A DNA stretch of 64,000 bases, taken from assembly GCF_000371785.1 (NCBI RefSeq), contig NZ_AQUI01000002.1, positions 4,637,352-4,701,351 of the forward strand, read 5' to 3'. The translations under genes were made by a program, and so were the position numbers. The first letter of the stretch is position 1, and every line of letters starts with the position of its first letter. A model generated the notes under the pieces. The model was not told where the DNA came from. It did no database searches and was given only the letters and a program-made list of their open reading frames with translations. Source of the DNA: Actinopolyspora halophila DSM 43834 (GTDB lineage Bacteria; Actinomycetota; Actinomycetes; Mycobacteriales; Pseudonocardiaceae). This document shows positions 14,069-61,364 of the stretch, piece by piece.

Positions 14069-14171
14069 CCCAGTTATGGGCAAAACTGGGCGGTCCACCG
14101 CTCCCCTGGTGTCCCTCTCCCCGTTGAGAGCTCGGGCAGTGGGGACAGCCGCCCAGTTATAGGCAAAACTG
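14069..14171. repeat. Two copies of the CAGTTATRGGCAAAACTG hairpin repeat
   Basis: Copies at 14069-14090 and 14152-14171. Each has a 7-bp stem (CCCAGTT/AACTGGG in the first) around the loop ATRGGCAA. They sit between two convergent genes. Further copies occur at 15299, 18383, 18768 and 18823. There is no U tract, so they are either unusual bidirectional terminators or protein-binding sites. Confidence 0.75.
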
Positions 14172-22551: not shown

Positions 22552-23397
22552 GTGCCATGGGAACCCCCGAAGGGCGAAACCGCGGCGGATCCGTTCGCAA
22601 CGCTGCGGATCGGCTTCGCAGGCCGCGTCGAACTACCGACCGGTGAACTACTGGCCGAGCAGTCCACCAGGATCGACGGAAACCACGATCCCGGCCCGCT
22701 CTGCTGGATAAGTAAGGAGCCACCCTCCGCACAGCTGTTGGCGACACTGCGCGCCGAAAGTAGCTCCAACGGGCTGTGGCCGCTGTTGCTGGTGGACGAC
22801 ACCGAGCTGTACGGCGACCGCTGCACCGTCGGCGTGGTCACTCCGGAGCCCCGGGCCCACATCGGCAAATGGCAACCGGGGCAGGTGATGAGCAGGATCT
22901 GGGACGGGCTGTGCCAGATCGACTCCGAGCTCGGCCCGGCCTACGACGAGGACAGCCTCGCCCCGTTCGGGCACTCCTGTCCCGGACTCGCACCACCCGG
23001 TGACCTGCTGGCCGACTCGACCGTGCTCGCCAACCAGCTCACCCAGCGACTGCTGGACGAGCAGACCCGACTAGGCCTGGTACCGGTCCCCCGGGGAGCC
23101 GACGCGCTCACCGTGCTCGGGTGGTCGGGAGCCACGAACCACGTCTCCCGCTCAGCCGGGCTGTCCGCCGTGCTGCGCAGTTGGGAGGAACGCTTCGGGG
23201 CCCGCGTATTGCGTCTCGGTCCCGATCGGCTGGACCTCAGCGTGGCGGCCCCACCCATCCGCGCGGAACACGCCGCGGCCGTGGCGGCGGAACACTGGAC
23301 GTTCGCACCCGATCGGATCATGCAGGACACGGGCAGCATCTCCGCGTACGCCGAGGAGATACGAGGCCGCAGGCAGTGGACCTTCTGGTGGGACTGA
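22552..23397 (+). CDS. DUF4253 domain protein
   Basis: 281 aa from GTG 22552, with GAGGAGG 7 bases upstream. The C-terminal half matches DUF4253: VPVPRGADALTVLGWSG, SAVLRSWEERFGARVLRLGPD, LDLSVAAPP, EHWTFAPD and a terminal RRQWTFWWD. DUF4253 proteins are cytosolic, related to SMI1/SUKH-type immunity-like folds in some contexts, but no function is established. It ends at a convergent junction filled by a structured repeat. Confidence 0.85.
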   Translation: MPWEPPKGETAADPFATLRIGFAGRVELPTGELLAEQSTRIDGNHDPGPLCWISKEPPSAQLLATLRAESSSNGLWPLLLVDDTELYGDRCTVGVVTPEPRAHIGKWQPGQVMSRIWDGLCQIDSELGPAYDEDSLAPFGHSCPGLAPPGDLLADSTVLANQLTQRLLDEQTRLGLVPVPRGADALTVLGWSGATNHVSRSAGLSAVLRSWEERFGARVLRLGPDRLDLSVAAPPIRAEHAAAVAAEHWTFAPDRIMQDTGSISAYAEEIRGRRQWTFWWD

Positions 23398-23440
23398 TCG
23401 GAAGTTCGGCGACTCGGTCTGCATGGTTGGTTCTGATGAG

Positions 23441-23545
23441 CGGAACCTCTCGCGGGCTCTCGCTGCGAGTGTCCCGACTTCGAGTAGCGACACCAACGTC
23501 TCCGACCGTCCTCGCGAGAGCACCACGAGAGAACCCGCGGCGGTG
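23441..23545 (-). repeat. Structured intergenic repeat, copy 1 (degenerate centre)
   Basis: Inverted arms GGAACCTCTCGCGGGCTCTCGC (given in two parts: CTCTCG and GCTCTCGC) at 23442-23464 and their complement at 23513-23535, in opposite orientation to the other copies. The central stem seen in other copies is degraded, although CGAGTAGCG recalls the conserved apex. It fills the convergent gap between the DUF4253 and DUF3017 genes. Confidence 0.65.
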
Positions 23546-26234: not shown

Positions 26235-28994
26235 ATGTCGCGCCCGACAGCGATCAGCCCGGAAGAGCAGGAACAGATAGCACGCAGGATCGGGGTCCTG
26301 CTGCTGCAGGAGGCACCCGAGGACTGGCAACAGGTTACCGTGGAGTACCGCGCCACGGGTGAGTATCACGACCTGCTCGCGGAAGTGACCCTGCAGGACG
26401 GCGATAGCCGAGCATGGGAGCCGCCGGAGGAGCTGAACGGAATTTTCGAGCACCTCCGTGAGGGCATGTACAGGCCCGACGTCGGCACATGGCTCAGCGC
26501 GCTGTACACAGTGGAGCGCCCGTCGAGCTACCGCATCGACATCAACTTCGACGAGGAACCGCAGTGGCAGCAACCGCTGCCTCCCGAGGCCTACGCCGAG
26601 GAGCTGCGCCGCTACCCGCGTTCCGAGGACAACGTCCCGGACTGGATGAGCGCGCGGCTGACGAGCACGCAGTCGTCGGACGACGCCCTGCCGGTTCGGG
26701 AACCCCGCCGTCCGGAAGCCGAGCTGCCGGGACAGCCCGAACCGCACGAGGGCGTCCCCGCAGCCGAGGAAGCCGCGGGACCCCGACTGACCACGGCACG
26801 CGTGTTCGACGACGCGGACGAGCGGGGACGTCCACTCGTCCAGGGCCGCCCTCCGCTCTCCCCGCAGGAGAACGAACCGCTGCTGCGCTATCTCGAGAGC
26901 GCCCCCGTGGTGCTTCCCGCGGAGAGCTACGGACCGGATCGACTGGATCCGAACCGGCCCGAGGCCGTCCCGGACAGTTGGCACAGCGACGGAACCTGGC
27001 TTTGGCCGGGCGCCGTTCCCTACTACCTGGCGCAGTACGGCATGCCGCCGCAGCCCGAACTGGTCCAGCACATCCGCTCCGCGAGTTTCACGGTCGTCGA
27101 ACTCGATCCCGCCGTGCGAGAAGCCGCCGAGAGGGCCGCTCGTGCCGCGGAGACCGCGGCAGAGGCCGAACACGCCGCGAACATCCCGGACACTCCCGAA
27201 GGACTTCCCCTCGGCGACGGCGCCGCCCTCGGTGAGACCGAAGCCGTCACGACGACCATGGCGGCCACCTCGGAGGAGGCAATTCCACATTCCGCCGAGC
27301 GACCGGACGAGGACGCTCCGGAGCACTCGGAGGAAGGCTTCCGGCAGGATCCGCTTTCCGAGACATCGGCTCGTTCGTACGATCCGCTCGCGGAGTCCCC
27401 GGAGGACCCCGTGTTCACCGCGGAAGAACCCCCCGAGCCGGAACCGTCCGCTCCGGACACCGACGATTCAACCACTGCCCAGGAGGAACCGCGTTCCTTC
27501 GACGAGGTCGTCGCGGCGTCCCGCCACGGACGCTCCGACGATCAGGAGGAGGACGCGGAAACGATCTTCGCGCAGCTGCGGGAACGGTTCGACGAGCTCG
27601 GGGTCCATCCCTCCGAGTACAGCCTCGGTCTCCGTTCGGAAGCGGTCAGGTCGCTGTTCGACGAAGGGGCCGACTGGGTCGTCACGGCCCCGAACGACGA
27701 CGAGGTGATGCGCTTCGTCCGCCCCGACCAGGCCTGCGCCTATCTGCTCGGCAGCCTGCTGCTCGACGGCTCCGTGGACTCCGGAACCGTTCCTCCCCCG
27801 TCCGATTCGGACGTCGCCGAAGAGCCCGCTGTCCAGGACGAGGCGCGTCCCTTCCTCGCGGAGGAACCGCTCGAAACCCCCGAGGTCGCCACCGAGACGC
27901 GGGACGCGGCGTCCACCGAGGGCAGCGGACAAGCGGAGGTGCCTCTCACCGAATCCCCCTTGGGAGAGCTGCCCAGGCGGCGCGGCGCCACCGGCGCGGA
28001 GCCGCCGGCCAACGACTCCGGGGGGAACTTCCTGTTCGCGGCCACCGAAAGCCGTGACGACGCGCCGGAGAACTCCGGCGAACCGGAACCCTCTCCCGTC
28101 ACTGCCGGAAACGACTCCGGAGTTCCCGCGGGCCCTTCCGCCGAGGAGGTCTCACCCGACGGGCAGCAGTCCGTCCCCTCCGAGCCGGGCCCCTTGTCGG
28201 AGCGGGCTCCTGAGCAGGCCCCCGAGCAGGAGATCGATTCGGCGGGCACTCCCCCACCCGGACAGATGCCGCCTCCGTTGCCGAAGCGGCCTCCTCGTTC
28301 CGAGCAGCCGGGGGCTTCCGAGCAACCCGCTCCCGGTCAGGCCGCTCAGCAACCTCCGGCCGCCCCGCCGCAAGCCGCTCCCGGGGCGGACGGTCAGCAG
28401 CCTCCGGGAGTGCCCCCGGCCGCACGACCGGGAGGAGCCGCGCCACAACCGCCCCCGCGCCCACCGCACCCGAACGCACCGGGCGTTCCCGGACAGCCAC
28501 AGCCGGGACCGGGTGCGCAGGGGCCCGCTCCGGGGCCGGCCCAACCACCGCAGAACGGGCAACAGCCCCCGATGGGCCAGCCCCAGCAGGGAGCTCCCTC
28601 CGCACCACAGCCGCCTCGCCCCGGCGGTGAGCAGCCCATTCAGCCGCTCCGGGGCGAACCGCCGCTGACGTTGTACCGCAGCAGGCAGAACATGATGTTG
28701 CAGCCGGGTGCCGAGGTGGACCGCTTCGGTGATCCGGACGGCAACGTCATGTACGCGATCCGCACTCCGTACAACCAGCGTTCACTGCCGCCGCAGTGGG
28801 CGAGCCGGAACTACTTCGCCTACCGCGTGCAGCGTCCCGTGCAAGTGCTGTGCGGCACGGCGGTTCCGTGGTTCGAACAGCCCGGGGGCGGCACCGCCTA
28901 CGTGCTGCCCGCCTCGATCAACGAGCTGCTCGCCGACGGCACTCTGGTGACGTTGAACGGCAATGAGGTGATGCGGCCTCCGATGGAGGGCTGA
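26235..28994 (+). CDS. TNT-domain NAD glycohydrolase toxin with N-terminal YezG-like domain
   Basis: 919 aa from ATG 26235, 9 bases after GGGAGG; an in-frame ATG at 26226 is too close to that site. Domains in order: about 8-125, a YezG/DUF600-like immunity-type domain (APEDWQQVTVEYRATGEYHD); 185-290, a module ending in YYLAQYGMPPQPELVQHIR; a long acidic linker; 440-515, ETIFAQLRERFDELGVHPSEY through AYLLGSLLLDG; a Pro/Gln-rich stretch (about 640-800); and a C-terminal TNT domain (805-919) with LYRSR, EVDRFG, TPYNQRSLPP and the conserved Gln in WFEQPGGGTAYVLP. TNT enzymes hydrolyse NAD+. No signal peptide is seen, so export would need a specialised route. Architecture is known in actinobacteria; the role here is inferred. 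Confidence 0.82.
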   Translation: MSRPTAISPEEQEQIARRIGVLLLQEAPEDWQQVTVEYRATGEYHDLLAEVTLQDGDSRAWEPPEELNGIFEHLREGMYRPDVGTWLSALYTVERPSSYRIDINFDEEPQWQQPLPPEAYAEELRRYPRSEDNVPDWMSARLTSTQSSDDALPVREPRRPEAELPGQPEPHEGVPAAEEAAGPRLTTARVFDDADERGRPLVQGRPPLSPQENEPLLRYLESAPVVLPAESYGPDRLDPNRPEAVPDSWHSDGTWLWPGAVPYYLAQYGMPPQPELVQHIRSASFTVVELDPAVREAAERAARAAETAAEAEHAANIPDTPEGLPLGDGAALGETEAVTTTMAATSEEAIPHSAERPDEDAPEHSEEGFRQDPLSETSARSYDPLAESPEDPVFTAEEPPEPEPSAPDTDDSTTAQEEPRSFDEVVAASRHGRSDDQEEDAETIFAQLRERFDELGVHPSEYSLGLRSEAVRSLFDEGADWVVTAPNDDEVMRFVRPDQACAYLLGSLLLDGSVDSGTVPPPSDSDVAEEPAVQDEARPFLAEEPLETPEVATETRDAASTEGSGQAEVPLTESPLGELPRRRGATGAEPPANDSGGNFLFAATESRDDAPENSGEPEPSPVTAGNDSGVPAGPSAEEVSPDGQQSVPSEPGPLSERAPEQAPEQEIDSAGTPPPGQMPPPLPKRPPRSEQPGASEQPAPGQAAQQPPAAPPQAAPGADGQQPPGVPPAARPGGAAPQPPPRPPHPNAPGVPGQPQPGPGAQGPAPGPAQPPQNGQQPPMGQPQQGAPSAPQPPRPGGEQPIQPLRGEPPLTLYRSRQNMMLQPGAEVDRFGDPDGNVMYAIRTPYNQRSLPPQWASRNYFAYRVQRPVQVLCGTAVPWFEQPGGGTAYVLPASINELLADGTLVTLNGNEVMRPPMEG

Positions 28995-29003
28995 TCAGAA
29001 AAC

Positions 29004-29053
29004 CGCTGCGCGCGGCCGCGGGACGGGCTTGCGCTCCGCGACCGCGCGCAGCG
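29004..29053 (+). terminator. Hairpin terminator of the TNT gene
   Basis: An 18-bp stem with one mismatch (29004-29021 with 29036-29053, outer arm CGCTGCGCGCGG) starts 9 bp after the stop codon. No U tract follows. Confidence 0.7.
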
Positions 29054-29154
29054 TCCTCTCGGACTGCGCACCGGGTGTTTCGCGCGGAACCTCCGAAGCG
29101 CTCCGCCCCGAAGCAGGCGCTTACGGGCCCGAGCAGGACGAGAAGATCCGGTGC

Positions 29155-29241
29155 GTGAGTCGGCTGCGTCGCGAAGCCGGGCCGCTCGCCACGTAGGCCG
29201 CTACTCACCAGCGGCCCAACACTCCCAAGGCGCCGACTCAC
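29155..29241. repeat. Structured intergenic repeat, copy 2a
   Basis: Outer stem GTGAGTCGGC (29155-29164) pairs perfectly with 29232-29241; inner stem GGGCCGCT (29179-29186) pairs with AGCGGCCC (29210-29217); the apex holds GTAGGCCGCTAC, which itself can fold. The stem sequences differ entirely from copy 2b 100 bp away, but the layout and apex are the same. Confidence 0.75.
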
Positions 29242-29336
29242 GTGCCGGCTGACAGGCCATCTACGCCAATCGACCCGCCGAAAAAGTCTCCACTCCAGCG
29301 CAGGCGCTTTGAGCCTACGCAGCCAGCGCCGCCGCG

Positions 29337-29433
29337 GGTTCTCTCGTGGTGCTCTCGCAGGCAAGGCCCGACATTGTGTAGGCCGCTACCCGATGTCGGG
29401 CCTCGCCTTCAGCGAGAGCCCGCGAGAGGTTCC
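29337..29433. repeat. Structured intergenic repeat, copy 2b
   Basis: Outer stem CTCTCG...GCTCTCGC (29341-29358) pairs with GCGAGAGC...CGAGAG (29412-29429); inner stem AGGCCCGACAT (29364-29374) pairs perfectly with 29393-29403; apex GTAG-GCCG-CTAC at 29378-29389. It is preceded by the module GCTTTGAGCCTACGCAG shared with other copies. It fills the convergent gap between the TNT and universal stress protein genes. Confidence 0.8.
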
Positions 29434-29479
29434 GCCACGCAACCATCCAAGCAAAAGGCACCGCCGACTCTCTTCCCCC

Positions 29480-29950
29480 TCAGGGAACGACAACCACCGG
29501 CCGCACCGCCTCGACCACCAACGTCGCGGGAACGGTTCCGAGCAGTCCGCCGCGTCTGCGGGAACGGCCGACGACGATGAGGTCGGAGCGGTACTCCTCG
29601 GCCACCTGCTCCAGTCCCACGGCCGGATCTCCCCGGTGGTGGACGAAATCCCAGTCGATGTCGACCCATTTCAGGTGGGTGACCAGTTCCTGTTTCAGAT
29701 CGGCCACGAGGCTCTCGGCGGCCTCACTGGCCACTGCCACGCCCATCGGTGACCAGTAGGCCACTCCCCCGACGGCTTCTACATAGACGAGCACCAGACG
29801 AGACCGCTCGCGCCGAGCGAGGCCCGCCGCCCATGCCGCGGCATGAAAACTGGCCGGGCTACCGTCCATCCCTACGACGATACCGCCCAGCCCGTCTTTG
29901 CCGATCTCGAAACTCGGCTCCGTGTGATCCATGGAGTCGTTTTCGGCCAC
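29480..29950 (-). CDS. Universal stress protein (UspA family)
   Basis: 156 aa from GTG 29950 (ATG 29932 is an alternative without a ribosome binding site). Begins GGIVVGMDGSPASFHAAAWAAGLA, the UspA nucleotide-binding strand, and ends with VVGRSRRRGGLLGTVPATLVVEAVRPVVVVP, a variant of the G-x2-G-x9-G-[ST] ATP motif. Cytoplasmic stress-response proteins of this type bind ATP or cAMP; the specific role is unknown. Confidence 0.88.
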   Translation of the reverse strand: MAENDSMDHTEPSFEIGKDGLGGIVVGMDGSPASFHAAAWAAGLARRERSRLVLVYVEAVGGVAYWSPMGVAVASEAAESLVADLKQELVTHLKWVDIDWDFVHHRGDPAVGLEQVAEEYRSDLIVVGRSRRRGGLLGTVPATLVVEAVRPVVVVP

Positions 29951-30060
29951 GCCCGGATGGTAGCCCGCTCCCACATCCGAATCGTGCCGGTACGACATAC
30001 TCGACATTCGCCGCGTCGGACTGATCCTTCCGCCCGGGGTGTCGTGGGCACCCGGTCGAC

Positions 30061-30120
30061 GGAACCTCCCGCGAGCTCACGCCGCGGACACCCCGACACC
30101 GGGTAGTGACCGCGGCGGAG
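30061..30120. repeat. Truncated, diverged copy of the structured intergenic repeat
   Basis: GGAACCTCCCGCGAGCTCAC at 30061 followed by CCCCGACACCGGGTAGTGACC resembles one outer arm plus half of the centre of the family, in the orientation of copy 1. The other outer arm is missing. It is in a divergent, not convergent, gap. Confidence 0.45.
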
Positions 30121-36445: not shown

Positions 36446-37363
36446 TCAGTTCGGAGGCTGCTGACCGGGATGGGGCATCTGCTGAGTGCCCTGCGGACCT
36501 CCCTGTGGGGCCCCCTGCTGTCCCTGCTGCTCCTGGGAGGACTGCTGGTCGTAGGGATTCGGCCTGGCGTAGGGGTTCTGCTGACCCCCCTGGTGGGGCT
36601 GTTGGGCGAACGAGCCGGGCTGTGCGTACTCCTGCGGTTGAGCCTGCGGCTGGCCCTGCGGTTGAGCCTGCGGCTGGCCCTGCGGTTGAGCCTGCGGCTG
36701 CGCGGGCTGGGGCTGTCCGAACTGTCCGGGCTGGGCCACGCCCTGTCCGGTTCCCGGGACGAAGCCACCCGACTGGGGGCTCCAACCGCCCTGCTGCTGC
36801 GGTGCTCCCTGCTGTTGCGGCGCCCCTGGCTGGGCCGGGTACGGGCCGCTCTGCGAATTCCAACCACCCTGCTGGGGCTGTCCAGGTTGCCCGGCCGGAC
36901 CGGGGTGCGCCACCTGCTGGGTGGCCCCTCCGCCCGTAGCGGGGGGTGTGAGGATCCGGTACTCGAACAACAGCAGCCCCACCACGGCCACCGCCTGCAG
37001 CAGGACCAGCAGCATCAGCACGATGGCGGCGGCTCCACCGGTCGTACCGGGAACGTCGGAGGTCCCCACGAGAACGACCTGCTGCAACATCGACAACGCC
37101 GCGTACACCGCGAGCGGAACCATCGCGACGGTCGAGCTCGGGACCCGTGGGAGCAACCACATCCCGGCCAGCGCGGCAGTGCCGATCACGGCGAGTCCGG
37201 ACACACCGGTCATCGCGTTGGCCGCCGAACCGAAGAATCCGACGAACCAGCTGATCAGACCGAGTGCTGCCGTGGCGAGCGCGAGGATCGACTTCGCGTC
37301 CAGCTCGAATTTCGCCCGCTCCGCCGCGGCGGGTTGCTGGGGGGGTGGGTAGGGGGCGGGCAT
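36446..37363 (-). CDS. DUF5336 membrane protein with Gln/Pro-rich tail
   Basis: 305 aa from ATG 37363, 5 bases after GGAG. Residues about 20-150 hold four membrane helices (ILALATAALGLISWFVGFF, AVIGTAALAGMWLLP, VPLAVYAALSMLQQVVLV, IVLMLLVLLQAVAVVGLLLF), matching DUF5336, the mycobacterial 34-kDa antigen homologue family. The remaining 150 residues are a low-complexity Gln/Pro/Gly tail with tandem repeats. It sits between sucD and the DUF6350 gene, all on the minus strand. Confidence 0.85.
   Translation of the reverse strand: MPAPYPPPQQPAAAERAKFELDAKSILALATAALGLISWFVGFFGSAANAMTGVSGLAVIGTAALAGMWLLPRVPSSTVAMVPLAVYAALSMLQQVVLVGTSDVPGTTGGAAAIVLMLLVLLQAVAVVGLLLFEYRILTPPATGGGATQQVAHPGPAGQPGQPQQGGWNSQSGPYPAQPGAPQQQGAPQQQGGWSPQSGGFVPGTGQGVAQPGQFGQPQPAQPQAQPQGQPQAQPQGQPQAQPQEYAQPGSFAQQPHQGGQQNPYARPNPYDQQSSQEQQGQQGAPQGGPQGTQQMPHPGQQPPN
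36632..36703. repeat. 24-bp tandem repeat inside the DUF5336 gene
   Basis: Three nearly exact copies of a 24-bp unit encode three copies of QPQAQPQG in the protein tail. Such units vary in number by slippage. Confidence 0.8.
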
Positions 37364-43025: not shown

Positions 43026-43127
43026 TTGGAGGGTCGGTAGCTCGGTTTGCGTGCGTGGTTCCGTGGGGGAACCTCGGTCGGCGCCCGGCTGCGGGAGCGC
43101 GCCCATCGAGTAGCCACCTACGCCACG

Positions 43128-43220
43128 GGTTCTCTCGTGGTGCTCTCGCAGGCAAGGCCCGACGTTGTGTAGGCCGCTACCCGATGTCGGGGCACCCGCT
43201 CACGGGACCGCGAGAGGGTC
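43128..43220. repeat. Structured intergenic repeat, copy 3
   Basis: Left arm GGTTCTCTCGTGGTGCTCTCGC (shared with copy 2b; 43128-43149) and right arm CGCGAGAGGGTCC (43209-43221); inner stem CCCGAC (43158-43163)/GTCGGG (43186-43191), extended by a G-U and a T-A pair; apex GTAGGCCGCTAC identical to copy 2b. The outer stem is partly eroded. It fills the convergent gap between the M23 and GbsR-type genes. Confidence 0.75.
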
Positions 43221-43259
43221 CGCCGCCCGCACCGCCGCGCAAACCGAGCCGACGAACCC

Positions 43260-43745
43260 TTATCCCTGAGCGCGCCACTTCTCCATCAACTTGGGTAGTT
43301 CGGTGCGCAGGAACTCGAAGAAACGACGCGTCTCGTCCAGCCTGCTTCCGGCGGCCGTCTCCGCCCCGAGCGCGGAAACGCCCTCCCGCAGAGTGCTCTC
43401 CCAGCTCAGGAACTGCTCGTCGCGCTGCGCGAACGCCTCGTACCACATGTCGTCGCGAACACGGTAGTGATCACGCCTGCTGCCCGGTTCGCGTTCCCGC
43501 ACGACCAGCCCCACCTGGATCAGGTAACGCACGGCTCCGGAAACCGCCGCCGCGCTGACCTGCAGGGAACGGGCGAGTTCTGCCGCCGTGCAGGATCCCT
43601 CGTCCGTTGCGAGCAGACGCACGAACACCCGCGCGGCCATGCGGGGGAACCCGGCCTCGCTGAAGTCCAGGGCGAAGCGCTCGACGAAGCGAGCCACCGC
43701 CTGCTCGTCACGCCCCTGCGCGGGGTTCGGCGTTGTCTCGGGCAT
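43260..43745 (-). CDS. GbsR/MarR-type transcriptional regulator
   Basis: 161 aa. Winged helix: FPRMAARVFVRLLATDEGSCTAAELARSLQVSAAAVSGAVRYLIQVGLVVREREPGSRRDHYRVRDDMW (given for position, residues about 33-100). The pattern MPRMAARVF-x-x-L and the later DDMWYEAFAQRDEQF are typical of actinobacterial GbsR-like MarR proteins beside ABC exporters. It diverges from an ABC-2 operon and both promoters carry the same 16-bp inverted repeat, so it very likely represses itself and the exporter. Confidence 0.87.
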   Translation of the reverse strand: MPETTPNPAQGRDEQAVARFVERFALDFSEAGFPRMAARVFVRLLATDEGSCTAAELARSLQVSAAAVSGAVRYLIQVGLVVREREPGSRRDHYRVRDDMWYEAFAQRDEQFLSWESTLREGVSALGAETAAGSRLDETRRFFEFLRTELPKLMEKWRAQG

Positions 43746-50436: not shown

Positions 50437-50504
50437 ACTCGCGAACGGGGGACCTAGCGGTGAAGCCGCTTGCAGCCTTCCAAGCAGCAGGCACCGCCGC
50501 GGGT

Positions 50505-50596
50505 TCTCGGACGAGTGCCCGGCGAGGACGGCCCCGACGTTGTGTAGGACCGCTACCCGAGGTCGGGGACCCCGCAGCCGGGCGCCGATCCGAGGT
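50505..50596. repeat. Structured intergenic repeat, copy 4
   Basis: Outer stem CTCGGA (50506-50511)/TCCGAG (50589-50594) and GCCCGGC (50517-50523)/GCCGGGC (50577-50583); inner stem CCCCGAC (50532-50538)/GTCGGGG (50562-50568); apex GTAGGACCGCTAC. Compared with copy 2b both arms of each stem have changed together. It fills the convergent gap between chorismate mutase and the SDR gene. Confidence 0.8.
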
Positions 50597-50640
50597 CCCC
50601 CCGCACCACTTGAGCGAACCGAGGCGAAAACTTCGACACC

Positions 50641-51432
50641 TCAGTATGCTGTCCGACCACCGTCCATCGGAAACGAGGAACCGGTGACGGAAACGGCCGA
50701 GTCACCACACAGCCAGACGGCCAGTTCGGCGACCTCTTCCGGCTCGACCAGCCGTTTCACCGGGGTCCTCGCCAGCAGCACGTCGTCGATCACCTGTTCG
50801 CGCGGCACCCGGTGACGCACCGCGTGCTCGCTCACCTGCTGCTCGACGAGGGGGGTGCGAACATATCCCGGACAGATGCAGTTCGACGTGACCCCGTGCT
50901 CGGCTCCCTCCACCGCGACGGTCTTCGACAGTCCCTCGAGGCCGTGCTTGGCCGTGACGTACGCGCTTTTCAGCGGAGAGGCCCGTAATCCGTGGACCGA
51001 CGATATGTTGACGATGCGGCCCCAACCCCTGCGATACATCCCGGGCAGAGCCGCGCGGATGATCCGGAACGGCGCCTGGACCATGACGTCCAACAACAGC
51101 GAGAACATCTCCGGCGGGTACTGGTGCACGGGCGCCACGTGCTGAAGACCGGCGTTGTTGATCACTATGTCGACGTCCTCACCCAGCCCGGCGACGGCCT
51201 CGGGCTCGGAGAGGTCCACGACGGTGTGCCGAGCACCGATCTCGGAGGCGACCGTCTCCAGCGATTCGGCCGCGCGGTCTGCGAGCAGCACATCGGCACC
51301 CGTCTTCGCCAGTCTCCTGGACACGGCAGCGCCGATCCCGCTTCCCGCCCCGGTAACGAGCGCCCGCTTGCCCGCCAGTTCTCCCGCGGATCCTGCTTGT
51401 GGCCGGAACGCGGCAGCCGAGCTCTCACCCAT
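50641..51432 (-). CDS. 3-hydroxybutyrate dehydrogenase-like SDR
   Basis: 263 aa. Classical SDR motifs: LVTGAGSGIGAAVSRRLA (NAD site), INNAGLQHVAPVHQ, the catalytic Ser in VNISSVHGLRASP, YVTAKHG (YxxxK) and CPGYVRTPLVEQQV. The LQHVAPVH and VHGLRASPLKSAYV segments match the bacterial 3-hydroxybutyrate dehydrogenase subfamily, which interconverts 3-hydroxybutyrate and acetoacetate. The gene is alone. Confidence 0.85.
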   Translation of the reverse strand: MGESSAAAFRPQAGSAGELAGKRALVTGAGSGIGAAVSRRLAKTGADVLLADRAAESLETVASEIGARHTVVDLSEPEAVAGLGEDVDIVINNAGLQHVAPVHQYPPEMFSLLLDVMVQAPFRIIRAALPGMYRRGWGRIVNISSVHGLRASPLKSAYVTAKHGLEGLSKTVAVEGAEHGVTSNCICPGYVRTPLVEQQVSEHAVRHRVPREQVIDDVLLARTPVKRLVEPEEVAELAVWLCGDSAVSVTGSSFPMDGGRTAY

Positions 51433-54877: not shown

Positions 54878-56353
54878 GTGAGCGACGAAGGTCGCCTGGT
54901 CGCCGGACGCTACCGGGTGCAGCGGCGCATCGGCAGCGGCGCGATGGGTGTTGTGTGGGAGTGTGTCGACGAACGCCTGCAGCGCACGGTCGCGGTCAAG
55001 CAACTGGTGATGCAACCCGGTCTGGACGCGGCCGAGGCGGAAGAAGCACGGCAACGGGCGATGCGCGAAGGGCGCATAGCGGCGAGGTTGCAGCACCCGC
55101 ACGCGGTGTCCGTCTACGACGTGGCCGAGGAGGAGGGGCAACCCGTCCTCGTGATGGAGTACCTGCCCTCCACGAGCCTGGCCTCGATGATGTCCGAGCA
55201 CGGCCCGCTGCCGCCACGTGAGGTCGCCCGCATCGGCGCCCAGGTGGCGGACGCCCTCGGTGCCGCGCACGCGGTCGGGGTGGTCCACAGGGACATCAAA
55301 CCGGGAAACGTCCTGCTCGGCGAGGACGGCACGGTCAAGATCACGGACTTCGGTATCTCGCGGGCGCAGGGAGACATCTCGGTCACCCAGACCGGGATGC
55401 TGGCGGGGACCCCCGCCTATCTGTCCCCCGACGTCGCGTGCGGCAAGGAACCCAGCGGGGCTTCCGACGTGTTCTCCCTCGGGGCCACGCTCTACGCCGC
55501 CGTCGAGGGGCATCCGCCGTTCGGGCAGAGCGAGAACACCCTCGCGCTGCTGCACGCCGTGGCCGCGGGCAAGGTCGAGCCCCCGCAGCAGGCGGGCCCG
55601 ATGGCCGACCCGCTCATGGCCATGTTGCGGGCCAACAACGAGGACCGACCGGACATGGCCCAGGTCAGGCAGATGTTGCAGACCGTGTCCGAGGGCCAGG
55701 CCGTGACCTCGGTCCCGAGCAGACCCGTTCCCATCCAGCCCGCGATGTCCCCGGGCACGGCAGCGGCCACCGAAGCCGTACCCGCGAACAACGACGGCGG
55801 GACCATGGTCGCCGGTTCCTCCCAGGAGGACGACCTCTACAGCGGCGGCGACACCCGCGCGGCCAACGCCTACCTCGGCTCGGACACCCGGGCGGACGCG
55901 GCGGTGAACAAGCGGCGTGGCAAGGGACCGCTGGTGGCCGCGGGCGTGCTGCTCGTCGCGGCCGTCGCGGCGGGGATCCTGGTCGTGACCTCGTTACTCG
56001 GCAACGACGGCGAGGCTGACCGGGTCACTCCAGCGGGCGGGGAGACCAGCAGCGAGCTCGCCCCCACCTCCACGACCACCACGGAGCAGACCACCTCGGA
56101 GCCGCAGTGGGACGAGCGCACCGAGGACGAGGACTACTACGAGACCACCCGGACGCAGGAGACCACGGAGGAAGAGGAGACCAGCACGACCGATCCACTG
56201 CCGGAAACCTCCGATTCGGATCCGACCTCCACCAGCGAGTCGGAGGACACGGACACGACGGCGACCACCACCACGGATACGGGTACGAGTACCAGCGCCG
56301 TCACCGAGGAGCAGACCGGTTCTCTGAACGACACAGGCCCCGGCACCGAGTGA
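54878..56353 (+). CDS. Membrane Ser/Thr protein kinase 1
   Basis: 491 aa from GTG 54878. Hanks-type kinase domain: IGSGAMGVVWECVD (Gly loop), VAVKQL (Lys41), HRDIKPGNVLL (catalytic loop), ITDFGIS (metal), LAGTPAYLSPDVA (activation/P+1 loop). A juxtamembrane stretch, one membrane helix (VAAGVLLVAAVAAGILVVTSLL, about residues 350-372) and a 115-residue Thr/Ser/Glu-rich extracellular tail without a folded domain follow. The sensor input is therefore unclear. Its neighbour at 56485 is a tandem paralogue. Confidence 0.92.
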   Translation: MSDEGRLVAGRYRVQRRIGSGAMGVVWECVDERLQRTVAVKQLVMQPGLDAAEAEEARQRAMREGRIAARLQHPHAVSVYDVAEEEGQPVLVMEYLPSTSLASMMSEHGPLPPREVARIGAQVADALGAAHAVGVVHRDIKPGNVLLGEDGTVKITDFGISRAQGDISVTQTGMLAGTPAYLSPDVACGKEPSGASDVFSLGATLYAAVEGHPPFGQSENTLALLHAVAAGKVEPPQQAGPMADPLMAMLRANNEDRPDMAQVRQMLQTVSEGQAVTSVPSRPVPIQPAMSPGTAAATEAVPANNDGGTMVAGSSQEDDLYSGGDTRAANAYLGSDTRADAAVNKRRGKGPLVAAGVLLVAAVAAGILVVTSLLGNDGEADRVTPAGGETSSELAPTSTTTTEQTTSEPQWDERTEDEDYYETTRTQETTEEEETSTTDPLPETSDSDPTSTSESEDTDTTATTTTDTGTSTSAVTEEQTGSLNDTGPGTE

Positions 56354-56484: not shown

Positions 56485-58143
56485 GTGAGCGACGAAGGTC
56501 GTCTGATCGCGGGACGCTACCGGCTGCACAAGAGCATCGGCAGCGGTGCGATGGGGGTGGTTTGGCGCGCGGTCGACGAGCGCCTGCAGCGCACCGTCGC
56601 GGTCAAGCAGTTGTTGCTGCAGCAGGGGCACACCGAGGCCGAAACGAGGGAAGCACGCGAGCGCTCGATGCGCGAGGGTCGCATCGCGGCCCGGCTGCAG
56701 CACCAGAACGCCATCGCCGTTTTCGACGTGGCCGAGGAGGACGGGCAACCCGTCCTCGTGATGGAGTACCTCCCCTCCACCAGTCTGGCCTCGCGGATCT
56801 CCGACGGCGGGCTGCTGCCCCCGATCGAGGCCGCGGGCATCGGAGCGCAGGTCGCCGGGGCGCTGGCGGCCGCGCACCTGGCCGGGATCGTGCACCGGGA
56901 CCTGAAGCCGGGCAACATTCTGATCGGCGAGGACGGCACCTCCAAGATCACCGACTTCGGTATCTCGCGCGCCGTGGGCGACGTGGCCGTGACCAAGAGC
57001 GGGATCCTCGCCGGAACCCCGGCCTACCTCTCACCCGAGGTGGCGCTGGGGCGGGACCCCGCTCCCGCCTCGGACGTGTTCTCCCTCGGTTCCACCCTCT
57101 ACGCCGCCATCGAGGGACATCCGCCGTTCGGGGTGGACGACAACGCCATCAGCCTGCTCCACCGGGTTTCCCGCGGCCAGGTGGAGTACCCGCGTCACGC
57201 GGGCCCGATGGCCCCCGCGCTGATGGAACTGCTGCGCGCCGATCCGGTGGAACGTCCCACCATGGCGCAGGCCAGGGACATACTGCAGGCCGTGCACGAC
57301 GGCAGACCCCTCCCCGGTGTCCAAAGCAGACCGCACCCCTCGGCACCACCCCACCCCGGCGGGAACCACGCCCCGCCGCCCTCGCCGGGGATGATGGGCC
57401 CCTCCGCTCCGCCCGGGCCTTCGCAGCAACCTCCCGCGGCGGCTCGACAGCAGCAGGCCACCGCAGCCGCCCCCACTGCCTCTCCCGCCGGTTCTCCCGC
57501 AGCGGCGAGTCCGCCCACGCGGGTGGGCTCCCCGGCCCGCAGCGGAGCTGATTCCCCCCGGGTCAGGCGTGCGCTCATCGGATGGGCCGTGGCCGTACTG
57601 CTGGCTGCCGTGGTCGGAATACTGGTCGCCAACGCCGTCTCCTCGGAGAGCGGGGACGGTTCGCAAGCGGTTTCCGCCGGAACACGGAGCACTTCCGGGA
57701 ACGAATCCGGCTCGGCGAACGCGGCCGAATCCGCCACGAGCGCGAAGAGCACCACCGCCGAGAGCACGAGCTCCACGTCCGCCGAGTCCGAGACCACCGA
57801 CAGTTCTTCGACGACTTCCTCGACCCCGAGGTCCGTTTCGGACGACCAGCTGGCCCGAACCGTACGAACCTACTTCGCGAAGGTGACCGAGGACACCGAC
57901 GCGGCGTGGAAGATGCTCGGCCCGGAGCTCAAGTCGGTGGGCCAGGACACCTACGAGGACTTCTGGGAGTCCATCGAGGATGTACGCATCGTGAGCGGAC
58001 CACGGGTGATCGGCGACGACCAGGTACAGGCCGTACTGCGCTACGAGCGGGAGGACGGCAAGAACAGCACCGAGAAACACGTTCTCGGCATGATCGTCAG
58101 GGACGGAACGCCGCTGATCAACACCGACAGCGGGACCAGCTGA
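56485..58143 (+). CDS. Membrane Ser/Thr protein kinase 2, with ectodomain
   Basis: 552 aa from GTG 56485. Kinase domain nearly identical in plan to kinase 1 (MSDEGRLIAGRYRLHKSIGS, VAVKQL, HRDLKPGNILI, ITDFGIS, LAGTPAYLSPEVA). A Pro/Ala-rich juxtamembrane region is followed by a membrane helix (ALIGWAVAVLLAAVVGILVAN), a Ser/Thr linker and a folded C-terminal ectodomain of about 95 residues (QLARTVRTYFAKVTEDTDAAWKMLG through KHVLGMIVRDG). It arose by tandem duplication with kinase 1 and has kept or gained a sensor domain. Confidence 0.92.
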   Translation: MSDEGRLIAGRYRLHKSIGSGAMGVVWRAVDERLQRTVAVKQLLLQQGHTEAETREARERSMREGRIAARLQHQNAIAVFDVAEEDGQPVLVMEYLPSTSLASRISDGGLLPPIEAAGIGAQVAGALAAAHLAGIVHRDLKPGNILIGEDGTSKITDFGISRAVGDVAVTKSGILAGTPAYLSPEVALGRDPAPASDVFSLGSTLYAAIEGHPPFGVDDNAISLLHRVSRGQVEYPRHAGPMAPALMELLRADPVERPTMAQARDILQAVHDGRPLPGVQSRPHPSAPPHPGGNHAPPPSPGMMGPSAPPGPSQQPPAAARQQQATAAAPTASPAGSPAAASPPTRVGSPARSGADSPRVRRALIGWAVAVLLAAVVGILVANAVSSESGDGSQAVSAGTRSTSGNESGSANAAESATSAKSTTAESTSSTSAESETTDSSSTTSSTPRSVSDDQLARTVRTYFAKVTEDTDAAWKMLGPELKSVGQDTYEDFWESIEDVRIVSGPRVIGDDQVQAVLRYEREDGKNSTEKHVLGMIVRDGTPLINTDSGTS

Positions 58144-60334: not shown

Positions 60335-60515
60335 CCCCGACACGAGCGCTTACGAGCCTGCGCAGTCGGCACCGCCGAAGGATACCGTGCTCTGAGCCTG
60401 CGCAGTCGGCACCGTCACGAGCAGCCCGAGCCGCTACGAAAACCCGGACAGGAACTCCCAACAGAAGCGGCGCACCAACGCAGGTGCTTACGAGCCTACG
60501 CAGCCCAACCGACCG
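60335..60515. repeat. Three copies of the GAGCCTRCGCAG module
   Basis: GCTTACGAGCCTGCGCAGTC near 60348, CTCTGAGCCTGCGCAGTCGG near 60390, and GCTTACGAGCCTACGCAG at 60486-60503. The same module precedes structured repeat copy 2b (29306) and, in part, copy 2a (29118). The third copy leads directly into structured repeat copy 5. Confidence 0.65.
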
Positions 60516-60517
60516 CG

Positions 60518-60608
60518 GGTTCCCAGTCGAGGGTCTCGCGAGGACAGCCTCGACGTTGGTGCCTACCCGATGTCGAGGATCGGAGCAGCGAGACCCCGAC
60601 TGAGGTTC
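60518..60608. repeat. Structured intergenic repeat, copy 5
   Basis: Outer stem CAGTCG...GGGTCTCGC (60524-60539) pairs with GCGAGACCCCGACTG (60588-60602), one bulged A; inner stem CCTCGAC (60548-60554)/GTCGAGG (60572-60578); apex TTGGTGCCTACCC, lacking the full GTAG-CTAC. It fills the convergent gap between the EamA transporter and the LuxR regulator. Confidence 0.78.
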
Positions 60609-60659
60609 CGCCAAGTGACCACCCAAGCAACAGGACCCACCCACACTCCCCCCTCCCCT

Positions 60660-61364
60660 TCAAATCAGGCGGCGATCGGAGGCCCACTTGGACAGCTCGT
60701 ACCGGTTCGACAGCTGCGTCTTGCGCAGGACGCTGGAGACGTGCGTTTCGACCGTCTTCACCGAGATGAACAGCTCTGATCCGATCTCGCGGTAGGAGTA
60801 GCCGCGTGCGAGCAGCCGCAGCACCTCGCGTTCCCTGCGGGTCAGCTGGTCCAGTTCGGGGTCCCCGACCGGGGCGGAGTTCGGTCCCTCCGCGAAGGCG
60901 TCCAGCACGAAGCCCGCCAGCCGGGGTGAGAACACGGCGTCCCCGTCGGAGACCCGGCAGATCGAGTCGGCCAGCTCCCGCCCGGAGATCGTTTTGGTGA
61001 CGTAACCGCGCGCACCACCGCGGATCGTCGTGATGACGTCCTCGGCCGCGTCGGAGACGGACAGCGCGAGGAAAACCACTCCGGGACACCGCTCGCGCAG
61101 CCGTCGCAGCACCTCGACACCACCGCCGTCCGGCATGTGCACGTCCAACAGCACCACATCGGGCCGCAGGTGCTCGATCCCGGCCACGGCCTCGGCCACC
61201 GAGCCGGCTTCGCCGATCACCCGCACCCTGTCGTCGGCCGTGCCCAGTTCGGCGCGAACACCGGTGCGGAACAGCGCGTGGTCGTCGACGATGTAGACCC
61301 GCACCGCGGACCGCTCCCGTTCCGTCCCCCGGGGTTCCGGGGATCCGTCGTGCTCTTCGGTCAT
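60660..61364 (-). CDS. LuxR/NarL-family response regulator
   Basis: 234 aa from ATG 61364 with AAGGAG upstream. Receiver domain: VRVYIVDDHALFRTGVRAEL, phosphorylated Asp in VVLLDVHMPDGGG, ALSVSD and TKTIS (conserved Lys). C-terminal LuxR helix-turn-helix: LTRREREVLRLLARGYSYREIGSELFISVKTVETHVSSVLRK (position about 165-210). It lies 13 bp downstream of its PspC-histidine kinase. Confidence 0.94.
   Translation of the reverse strand: MTEEHDGSPEPRGTERERSAVRVYIVDDHALFRTGVRAELGTADDRVRVIGEAGSVAEAVAGIEHLRPDVVLLDVHMPDGGGVEVLRRLRERCPGVVFLALSVSDAAEDVITTIRGGARGYVTKTISGRELADSICRVSDGDAVFSPRLAGFVLDAFAEGPNSAPVGDPELDQLTRREREVLRLLARGYSYREIGSELFISVKTVETHVSSVLRKTQLSNRYELSKWASDRRLI

Follow-up and report, generated by a model that had tools for sequence, protein, structure and literature searches.

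The structured intergenic repeats of the window (the whole stretch of 64,000 nucleotides of Actinopolyspora halophila DNA that was analyzed) are probably a MITE-like family of mobile elements with a hairpin core that is kept as a folded strand, likely RNA; the transposase partner, the RNA identity of the folded strand, and a role in isolating genes are putative parts of this reading. The copy number, the rule for position relative to genes, the covariation of the stems, and the existence of a discrete unit in one other genome (G522) are direct results of the comparisons described here. The usual view of MITEs is that they are insertion sequences reduced by deletion, with an interior that may drift. 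In the present family, the shape of the interior is retained in copies of ten genera: the loops are fixed and the stems covary, while stems, apex, and ends vary. Conservation of the hairpin in shape, not in letters, between genera suggests that it does something as a folded strand.

The elements of the window were located with a covariance model (R1) that was built from 17 copies of the A. halophila genome and run over the window and that genome. The five full elements listed in the earlier note are real, and the stem sequences quoted there were correct as written. The best copy is a type I hairpin at 29332–29436 (+; 117.6 bits, z −8.55), about 44 nt from the stop of the − strand gene at 29480. 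The type I hairpin at 43123–43224 (+; 88 bits; about 33 nt to the stop of the − strand gene at 43260) has an altered right arm, and those at 50497–50602 (+; 73.8 bits; about 40 nt to the stop of the − strand gene at 50641) and 60513–60612 (+; 82.9 bits; about 43 nt to the stop of the − strand gene at 60660) each carry another arm haplotype, the latter with a shortened apex. The fifth, at 29146–29249 (+; 31.2 bits), is the second element of one convergent gap. It follows the plan that had been proposed for all copies, but represents a second sub-type (type II) with its own stems, GTGAGTCGG/CCGACTCAC; 22 of 26 further hits hand-picked from the model list belong to the same class. A copy previously called degenerate is a genuine type I match at 23439–23540 (−; 78.7 bits), about 42 nt past the stop of a + strand gene ending at 23397; its outer stems are intact, and only the inner stem and apex are degenerate. 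The supposed truncated copy at 30061 resembles half of a type I element by eye only (30059–30118, −), and none of the 300 listed model matches (E up to 0.92) covers this possible half copy. Single-strand DNA folds of nine stretches gave z scores of −2.3 to −8.6 against shuffles at the six window elements, and a tenth, the 30061 stretch, gave −2.4. All six copies lie in gaps between convergent genes, as called by our own codon-score gene finder. The best copy is flanked by a left arm (29280–29331, +), consisting of a small hairpin (CGCAGGCGCTTTGAGCCTACGC) and a GCCGCC module, and by a right arm (29437–29479, +), the hairpin-to-stop stretch with a CACGCAACCA.. module; both arms recur beside other copies.

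On the 5′ side of the reader strand, the hairpin core runs from GCGG and GTT through an outer stem and a second stem to an internal loop (GCGAGGACAG or GAGGAAGG) and the inner stem; the apex is GTAG/CTAC in Actinopolyspora, and the return side leads via GATCCC-like letters to GTT and CCGC. The internal loops hold many of the best-conserved letters, and GTT/GTT is conserved and non-complementary on one strand. Divergent copies of other genera have new stems and apexes (e.g., GTGAAT..ATTCAT or GACC/GGTC), and the GTAG apex is absent from most of the divergent copies printed. In the A. halophila genome, arm haplotypes are few: both arms could be classified in 83 of 141 copies (58 were left not fully classified), of which 73 match and 10 are mismatched recombinants. 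The inner left arm is GGAGAC or GGAGAT in 17 of the 141 copies and, by eye, pairs only partly with the right arm.

The earlier observation holds and is larger than first described. The check that had been proposed for it, a covariance-model search for more copies, returned 141 matches at E ≤ 0.1 in the two-contig, 5.35-Mb A. halophila genome (of 7623 first-look candidates, 150 were scored), the last two matches being weak, and further copies in the genus and family. Nine of ten genomes of the genus contain 116–140 matches (150 candidates scored in each). The tenth, G006 (4.2 Mb), contains only three, and offers a natural contrast for what the family needs. All of the 78 stretches found by a search of genome contigs for the apex pattern are from Actinopolyspora, and among 200 genomes sampled across the order, matches occurred in five of the genus and four from two other genera. 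A second, cross-genus model, trained on copies of the genus and divergent copies, gave matches in 84 of 390 genomes of the family and 15 of its 46 genera with 10 candidates scored per genome; within genera, occurrence is patchy. A sample of the class yielded matches in 3 of 394 genomes, one of which is weak and from outside the family, and a plasmid collection yielded no element match. All but about five of the 141 A. halophila copies lie within about 1.65 Mb of dnaA, and the strand polarity of the copies around dnaA may reflect gene orientation. At two loci of a genome from another family of the class (L342 and L344 in G774), a hairpin that resembles sub-type II by eye is enclosed by inverted repeats of the GGGGGTGTCYGRTGGAT kind, a hint that sub-type II may have a mobile unit of its own. 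Known Rfam families were rejected as the identity of the repeat: only a tRNA reached a gathering score in the window, 12 loci of other genomes had no match at E ≤ 1, and mraW RNA (RF01746) showed a weak full-length match to the 29332 copy at 26.7 bits, compared with a gathering score of 50.

The discrete unit is seen in G522, in which seven copies form units of 200–203 bp that contain no transposase gene, as is typical of MITEs. These units run from near TAGGACGTGTTTTATAAGCGG to near the inverse of TAGGGCCTGTTTCGAAAGTGG; six are 95–99% identical to each other, and the seventh is 87–89% identical. In the 60 bp outside the units, the flanks of the reference copy (L374) are only 13–33% identical to those of the other six. 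Each unit consists, in order, of a terminus, a small hairpin (AAGCGGCG..AGCCGCTT), GGCACCG, the big hairpin, ACCCGCACCGC, and a second terminus. The modules GCACCG and CCGCACCGCC are also found again next to copies from Actinopolyspora and other genera. The termini are imperfect inverted repeats located exactly at both ends (11–13 of 18 letters), an imperfection that lowered our confidence in the MITE reading; similar termini occur in G545 and, by eye, in G533. TA is present on both sides of six of the seven units and absent from one (L360), and two letters are weak as a target-site duplication. Both outer ends of two G545 hairpin units read CTAG, and the same genome holds three identical 943-bp elements with TAGGGCCTGTTTC ends and TA on both sides. 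The 943-bp elements code for DUF4096 and DDE_Tnp_1 (IS5 family), and their ends are similar, not identical, to those of the G545 hairpin units. By eye, a G522 stretch with the terminus TAGGGCCTGTTTCAGAAGTTG contains an open reading frame like the G545 DUF4096 protein.

Termini of this kind were not recognized in the A. halophila genome, where the best match in the end regions of 92 copies averaged 11.3 of 18 letters, compared with 11.2 for shuffled sequences (one copy reached 15), in a low-powered test that would hardly have detected the G522 termini either. Candidate termini of an IS5 partner were found at two of eight IS5-type loci in this genome and, by eye, are unlike the element ends; no matching partner emerged from these loci. 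DUF4096 genes are present in all ten genomes of the genus, including the three-copy G006, so their presence does not track copy number. A 126-bp stretch (L380), which looks by eye like a simple deletion product of an IS5-type insertion sequence, has no hairpin match. In several features the unit fits a MITE with IS5-like ends, with a putative target duplication and a candidate partner; by the Y1_Tnp and Rfam searches, it is neither a REP/RAYT system nor a known Rfam family. Its hairpin probably has a function.

Gene positions in A. halophila and in other genera were taken from the simple codon-score gene finder, not from annotation. By this measure, 53 of the 141 copies occupy convergent gaps, 54 occupy tandem gaps with the right-hand gene facing the element, 23 occupy tandem gaps of the other direction, and 11 occupy divergent gaps; the gene at the right end thus runs toward the element in 107 copies. 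For 92 of the 107, the distance from stop codon to hairpin is 25–54 nt (35–49 nt in 80 of them). Outside the genus, the right-end gene faces the element in 38 of 58 loci, and the left end faces a stop at 50–60 nt in eight of the 58. In A. halophila, TAG or TAA ends 27 of 92 element-adjacent genes, compared with 50 of the 444 remaining predicted genes (p = 3.0e-5, Fisher test). Outside the genus, TAG or TAA is found in 17 of 32 facing loci (TAG 12, TAA 5, TGA 15), a count from which six of the 38 were dropped (distances −46, −12, 10, 14, 14, and 151). At one locus (L385 in G536), the terminus starts within a TAG stop codon, with the hairpin following after 36 nt. The distance of about 40 nt between stop and hairpin equals the length of the right arm of the unit, and entry at TA-containing stop codons would account for the distance rule. 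A fixed distance from stop codons can arise from target choice and need not mean function. Stop-codon entry does not account for the preferred orientation, however, and TGA is the stop of many neighbor genes in A. halophila.

Turnover was followed in the 213–385 kb region of A. halophila, where 24 rows (23 places, one of which is counted in two loci) were compared with two relatives, G002 and G008. In G002, eight rows were not comparable, seven aligned through, two were gaps with a type I match, and seven were gaps without one (7 of 16 comparable rows); in G008, the corresponding numbers were five, seven, four, and eight (8 of 19 comparable rows). Absence here means absence of a type I match, and at least two such gaps contain type II sequence by eye. 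With this proviso, the dispersed copies are present or absent between relatives, as MITEs are. The aligned stretches are 87–95% identical, whereas identity in the element regions is only 0.43–0.95 in the 14 printed alignments, in two of which the relative shows no element. At five G002 sites, both arms are replaced together, and at two sites type I stands against type II. Whole hairpins are thus replaced at kept sites in Actinopolyspora, which provides natural swaps behind the same gene for testing the role of the fold. Some absences are deletions between short direct repeats (e.g., GGCGG at 300907 in G002). GCGGAACCCGC was considered as a pre-insertion target because of a joined site in G002, and rejected, as most of the genus-wide pattern matches listed are, by eye, the ends of full elements; the joined sites are read as deletions between GAACC repeats.

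Replacement of whole hairpin haplotypes at kept sites, even of type I by type II, would also be expected if the repeats were gene-end RNA elements of a fixed kind (terminators or 3′-UTR stabilizers), selected gene by gene and spread by recombination only, and such a class would fit their location at gene 3′ ends and the unrecognizable termini in A. halophila. We regard this explanation as unlikely, because it does not predict discrete, near-identical units in unrelated flanks or the patchy occurrence in 84 of 390 genomes. In addition, the pattern of a stem followed by a T run, as in a terminator, is absent from both strands of window positions 28990–29490 (other copies were viewed by eye only), and the gene-sense strand forms the less stable predicted fold in 62 of 62 copies, as described below.

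A MITE-like family with a selected hairpin is supported further by covariation. Alignment A3 (MAFFT) contains 28 copies: 15 from A. halophila, two from G006, and 11 from two other genera (four genomes). In A3, 96.0% of cells are paired and changes on both sides occur in 20 of 27 pairs (137 cells). The covariation score is 0.515; shuffled controls score 0.149, with none of 500 reaching the observed value, and slid controls score 0.107 at most. The structure was fixed after inspection of A3 and is favored by that choice. In A4, a model-fitted alignment of 80 distinct rows that takes in reverse-strand and weak rows, 23 of 27 pairs show changes on both sides, and the score is 0.408 compared with 0.123. 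The claim in the earlier note that the fold, not the sequence, is conserved is thus supported in both alignments beyond shuffled and slid controls, which do not model descent. Covariation of the stems holds in the sets that include other genera, but within A. halophila much of the variation amounts to a few arm haplotypes, and the claim therefore rests on the multi-genus sets.

The question of which strand folds was addressed with the 62 of 93 A4 rows that begin like the reader strand (31 were dropped); these include 55 unique copies from nine other genera and G006. In the 55 copies, non-Watson–Crick cells comprise 83 GU, 5 AC, and 47 others, or 31 GU versus 5 AC as distinct pair-by-genus cases; the wobble cells are not independent, and the copies counted came from models partly trained on them. 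Predicted RNA energy is lower on the reader strand in all 62 copies (mean −67.7 versus −56.5 kcal/mol). In A. halophila itself, the reader strand is lower in 123 of 129 copies, but a sequence-only alignment contains 131 GU and 163 AC cells, which speaks against RNA, and a model alignment contains 145 GU and 68 AC cells, with 84 of the 145 GU cells in two columns. The folded reader strand is therefore favored over its complement across genera, and weakly or not at all within A. halophila. Single-stranded DNA would likewise favor GT mismatches over AC, and a strand-specific DNA hairpin fits the data as well as RNA does. IS5-type transposases are not known to need such a hairpin.

The earlier note had offered a structured RNA, a bidirectional terminator, or a DNA cruciform. 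The part of this that concerns folding is upheld outside A. halophila, where the folded reader strand is favored, but the three options miss the mobile behavior seen in the discrete G522 units with unrelated flanks, the IS5-like ends, and the stop distance of one arm length. A cruciform or a double-strand protein site, in which the fold of the duplex would matter equally on both strands, is improbable: wobbles with little or no strand bias in A. halophila and the many copies that match the model on both strands accord with it, but neither a cruciform nor a two-way terminator would predict strand-specific wobbles (83 GU versus 5 AC in other genomes), and GTT/GTT is conserved on one strand despite being non-complementary. 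Still less probable is the absence of any function, with template-switch repair between the arms keeping the stems complementary without selection. In two A. halophila copies, at 3825921 and 71558, the apex has, by eye, become a near-perfect palindrome, the product expected of template switching at a hairpin; such repair should, however, erase the well-conserved internal loops, and the strand-specific wobbles also argue against it. REP/BIME-like sequences moved by a RAYT (Y1 transposase) are likewise intergenic hairpins near gene 3′ ends that occur in many copies and turn over fast, and the GTAG of the Actinopolyspora apex also fits them, but they are a very remote candidate, as the elements have no link to Y1 transposases (G008 and G009, with 124 and 116 element matches, lack any Y1_Tnp match, which largely refutes such a partner) and most of the printed divergent copies lack GTAG.

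The mobile, MITE-like reading can be extended into a mechanism. The element would be a non-autonomous unit of about 200 bp, with an end arm that contains a small hairpin, a 104-nt imperfect hairpin, a second end arm, and termini in imperfect inverted repeat. IS5-family transposases probably move it in trans, with entry at TA or CTAG sites. Genes of GC-rich genomes probably contain few of these, yet TA forms part of TAG and TAA stops, so surviving copies would sit just behind genes. Selection probably keeps the big hairpin as a folded single strand, most likely reader-strand RNA, with fixed internal loops (GUU/GUU and GCGAGGACAG/GAUCCC) and stems that change but stay complementary. Our best guess is that it serves as a transcript-end structure, isolating the gene from any transcription that crosses the insertion, which would make the element tolerable; the folded RNA would thereby render insertion harmless, or useful, at gene ends. 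The Actinopolyspora copies appear old, and recombination probably exchanges whole hairpins between sites. If the fold works as RNA, this would be a mobile element that shapes gene ends genome-wide. A bolder form of the proposal is tentative, and we hold it with some doubt: a transposable family with a strand-specific non-coding RNA as its only cargo, the GUU/GUU and GCGAGGACAG/GAUCCC loops of which are kept by compensatory evolution across many actinobacterial genera, located behind a few percent of genes (an estimate from 141 matches in 5.35 Mb), and supplying a common 3′-end RNA part to the host.

Among known systems, IS5-family MITEs resemble the element in their length of about 200 bp and lack of a transposase gene, and probably also in their inverted-repeat termini and TA/CTAG ends, and G545 contains both the elements and an IS5-family insertion sequence with similar ends. 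The present element differs in its interior, which is no insertion-sequence remnant but a 104-nt hairpin in which the loops are fixed and the stems covary. Integron attC sites also place a hairpin past a stop codon, keep structure over sequence, and fold on one strand. Unlike attC sites, the present elements have AAC at both ends in the gene sense, with no complementary R boxes, and are dispersed instead of arrayed. QMITE1 and QMITE2 of Coxiella burnetii are described as MITEs that are predicted to fold stably and that overlap loci of small RNAs, one QMITE2 being located at the 3′ end of a gene (PMC5896051). The article contains no word beginning with "covaria" and reports that BLASTn gave no QMITE1 orthologues in other genomes, whereas the fold of the present element is common to several genera (PMC5896051). 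No earlier description of the hairpin repeat is among the literature matches listed, which cover few subscription journals and no preprints, and its absence from print is not claimed.

Other repeats were also noted. A shorter hairpin like GCAGGCGCTTACGAGCCTGCGCAG occurs at window positions 29104, about 29300, 60333, and 60471, next to the elements, and is found again with many other copies. Gaps that bear elements (L064, L068, L083, and others) repeatedly contain a third short palindrome, of the TTCGGCGC..GCGCCGAA type, and look like mosaics of a few modules. A GTTATAGGCAAAACTG-like motif occurs five times within 5 kb (window positions 14073, 14156, 15303, 18770, and 18824) and is possibly a regulator site; the similar TATAGGCAAAATT and TATGGGCAAAATT are present in one gap of both the A. 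halophila genome and G008. Two adjacent predicted genes have in common a 300-bp stretch of 80% identity (54878–55177 and 56485–56784), and a 24-bp tandem repeat is present in three copies within a predicted gene (36631–36702).
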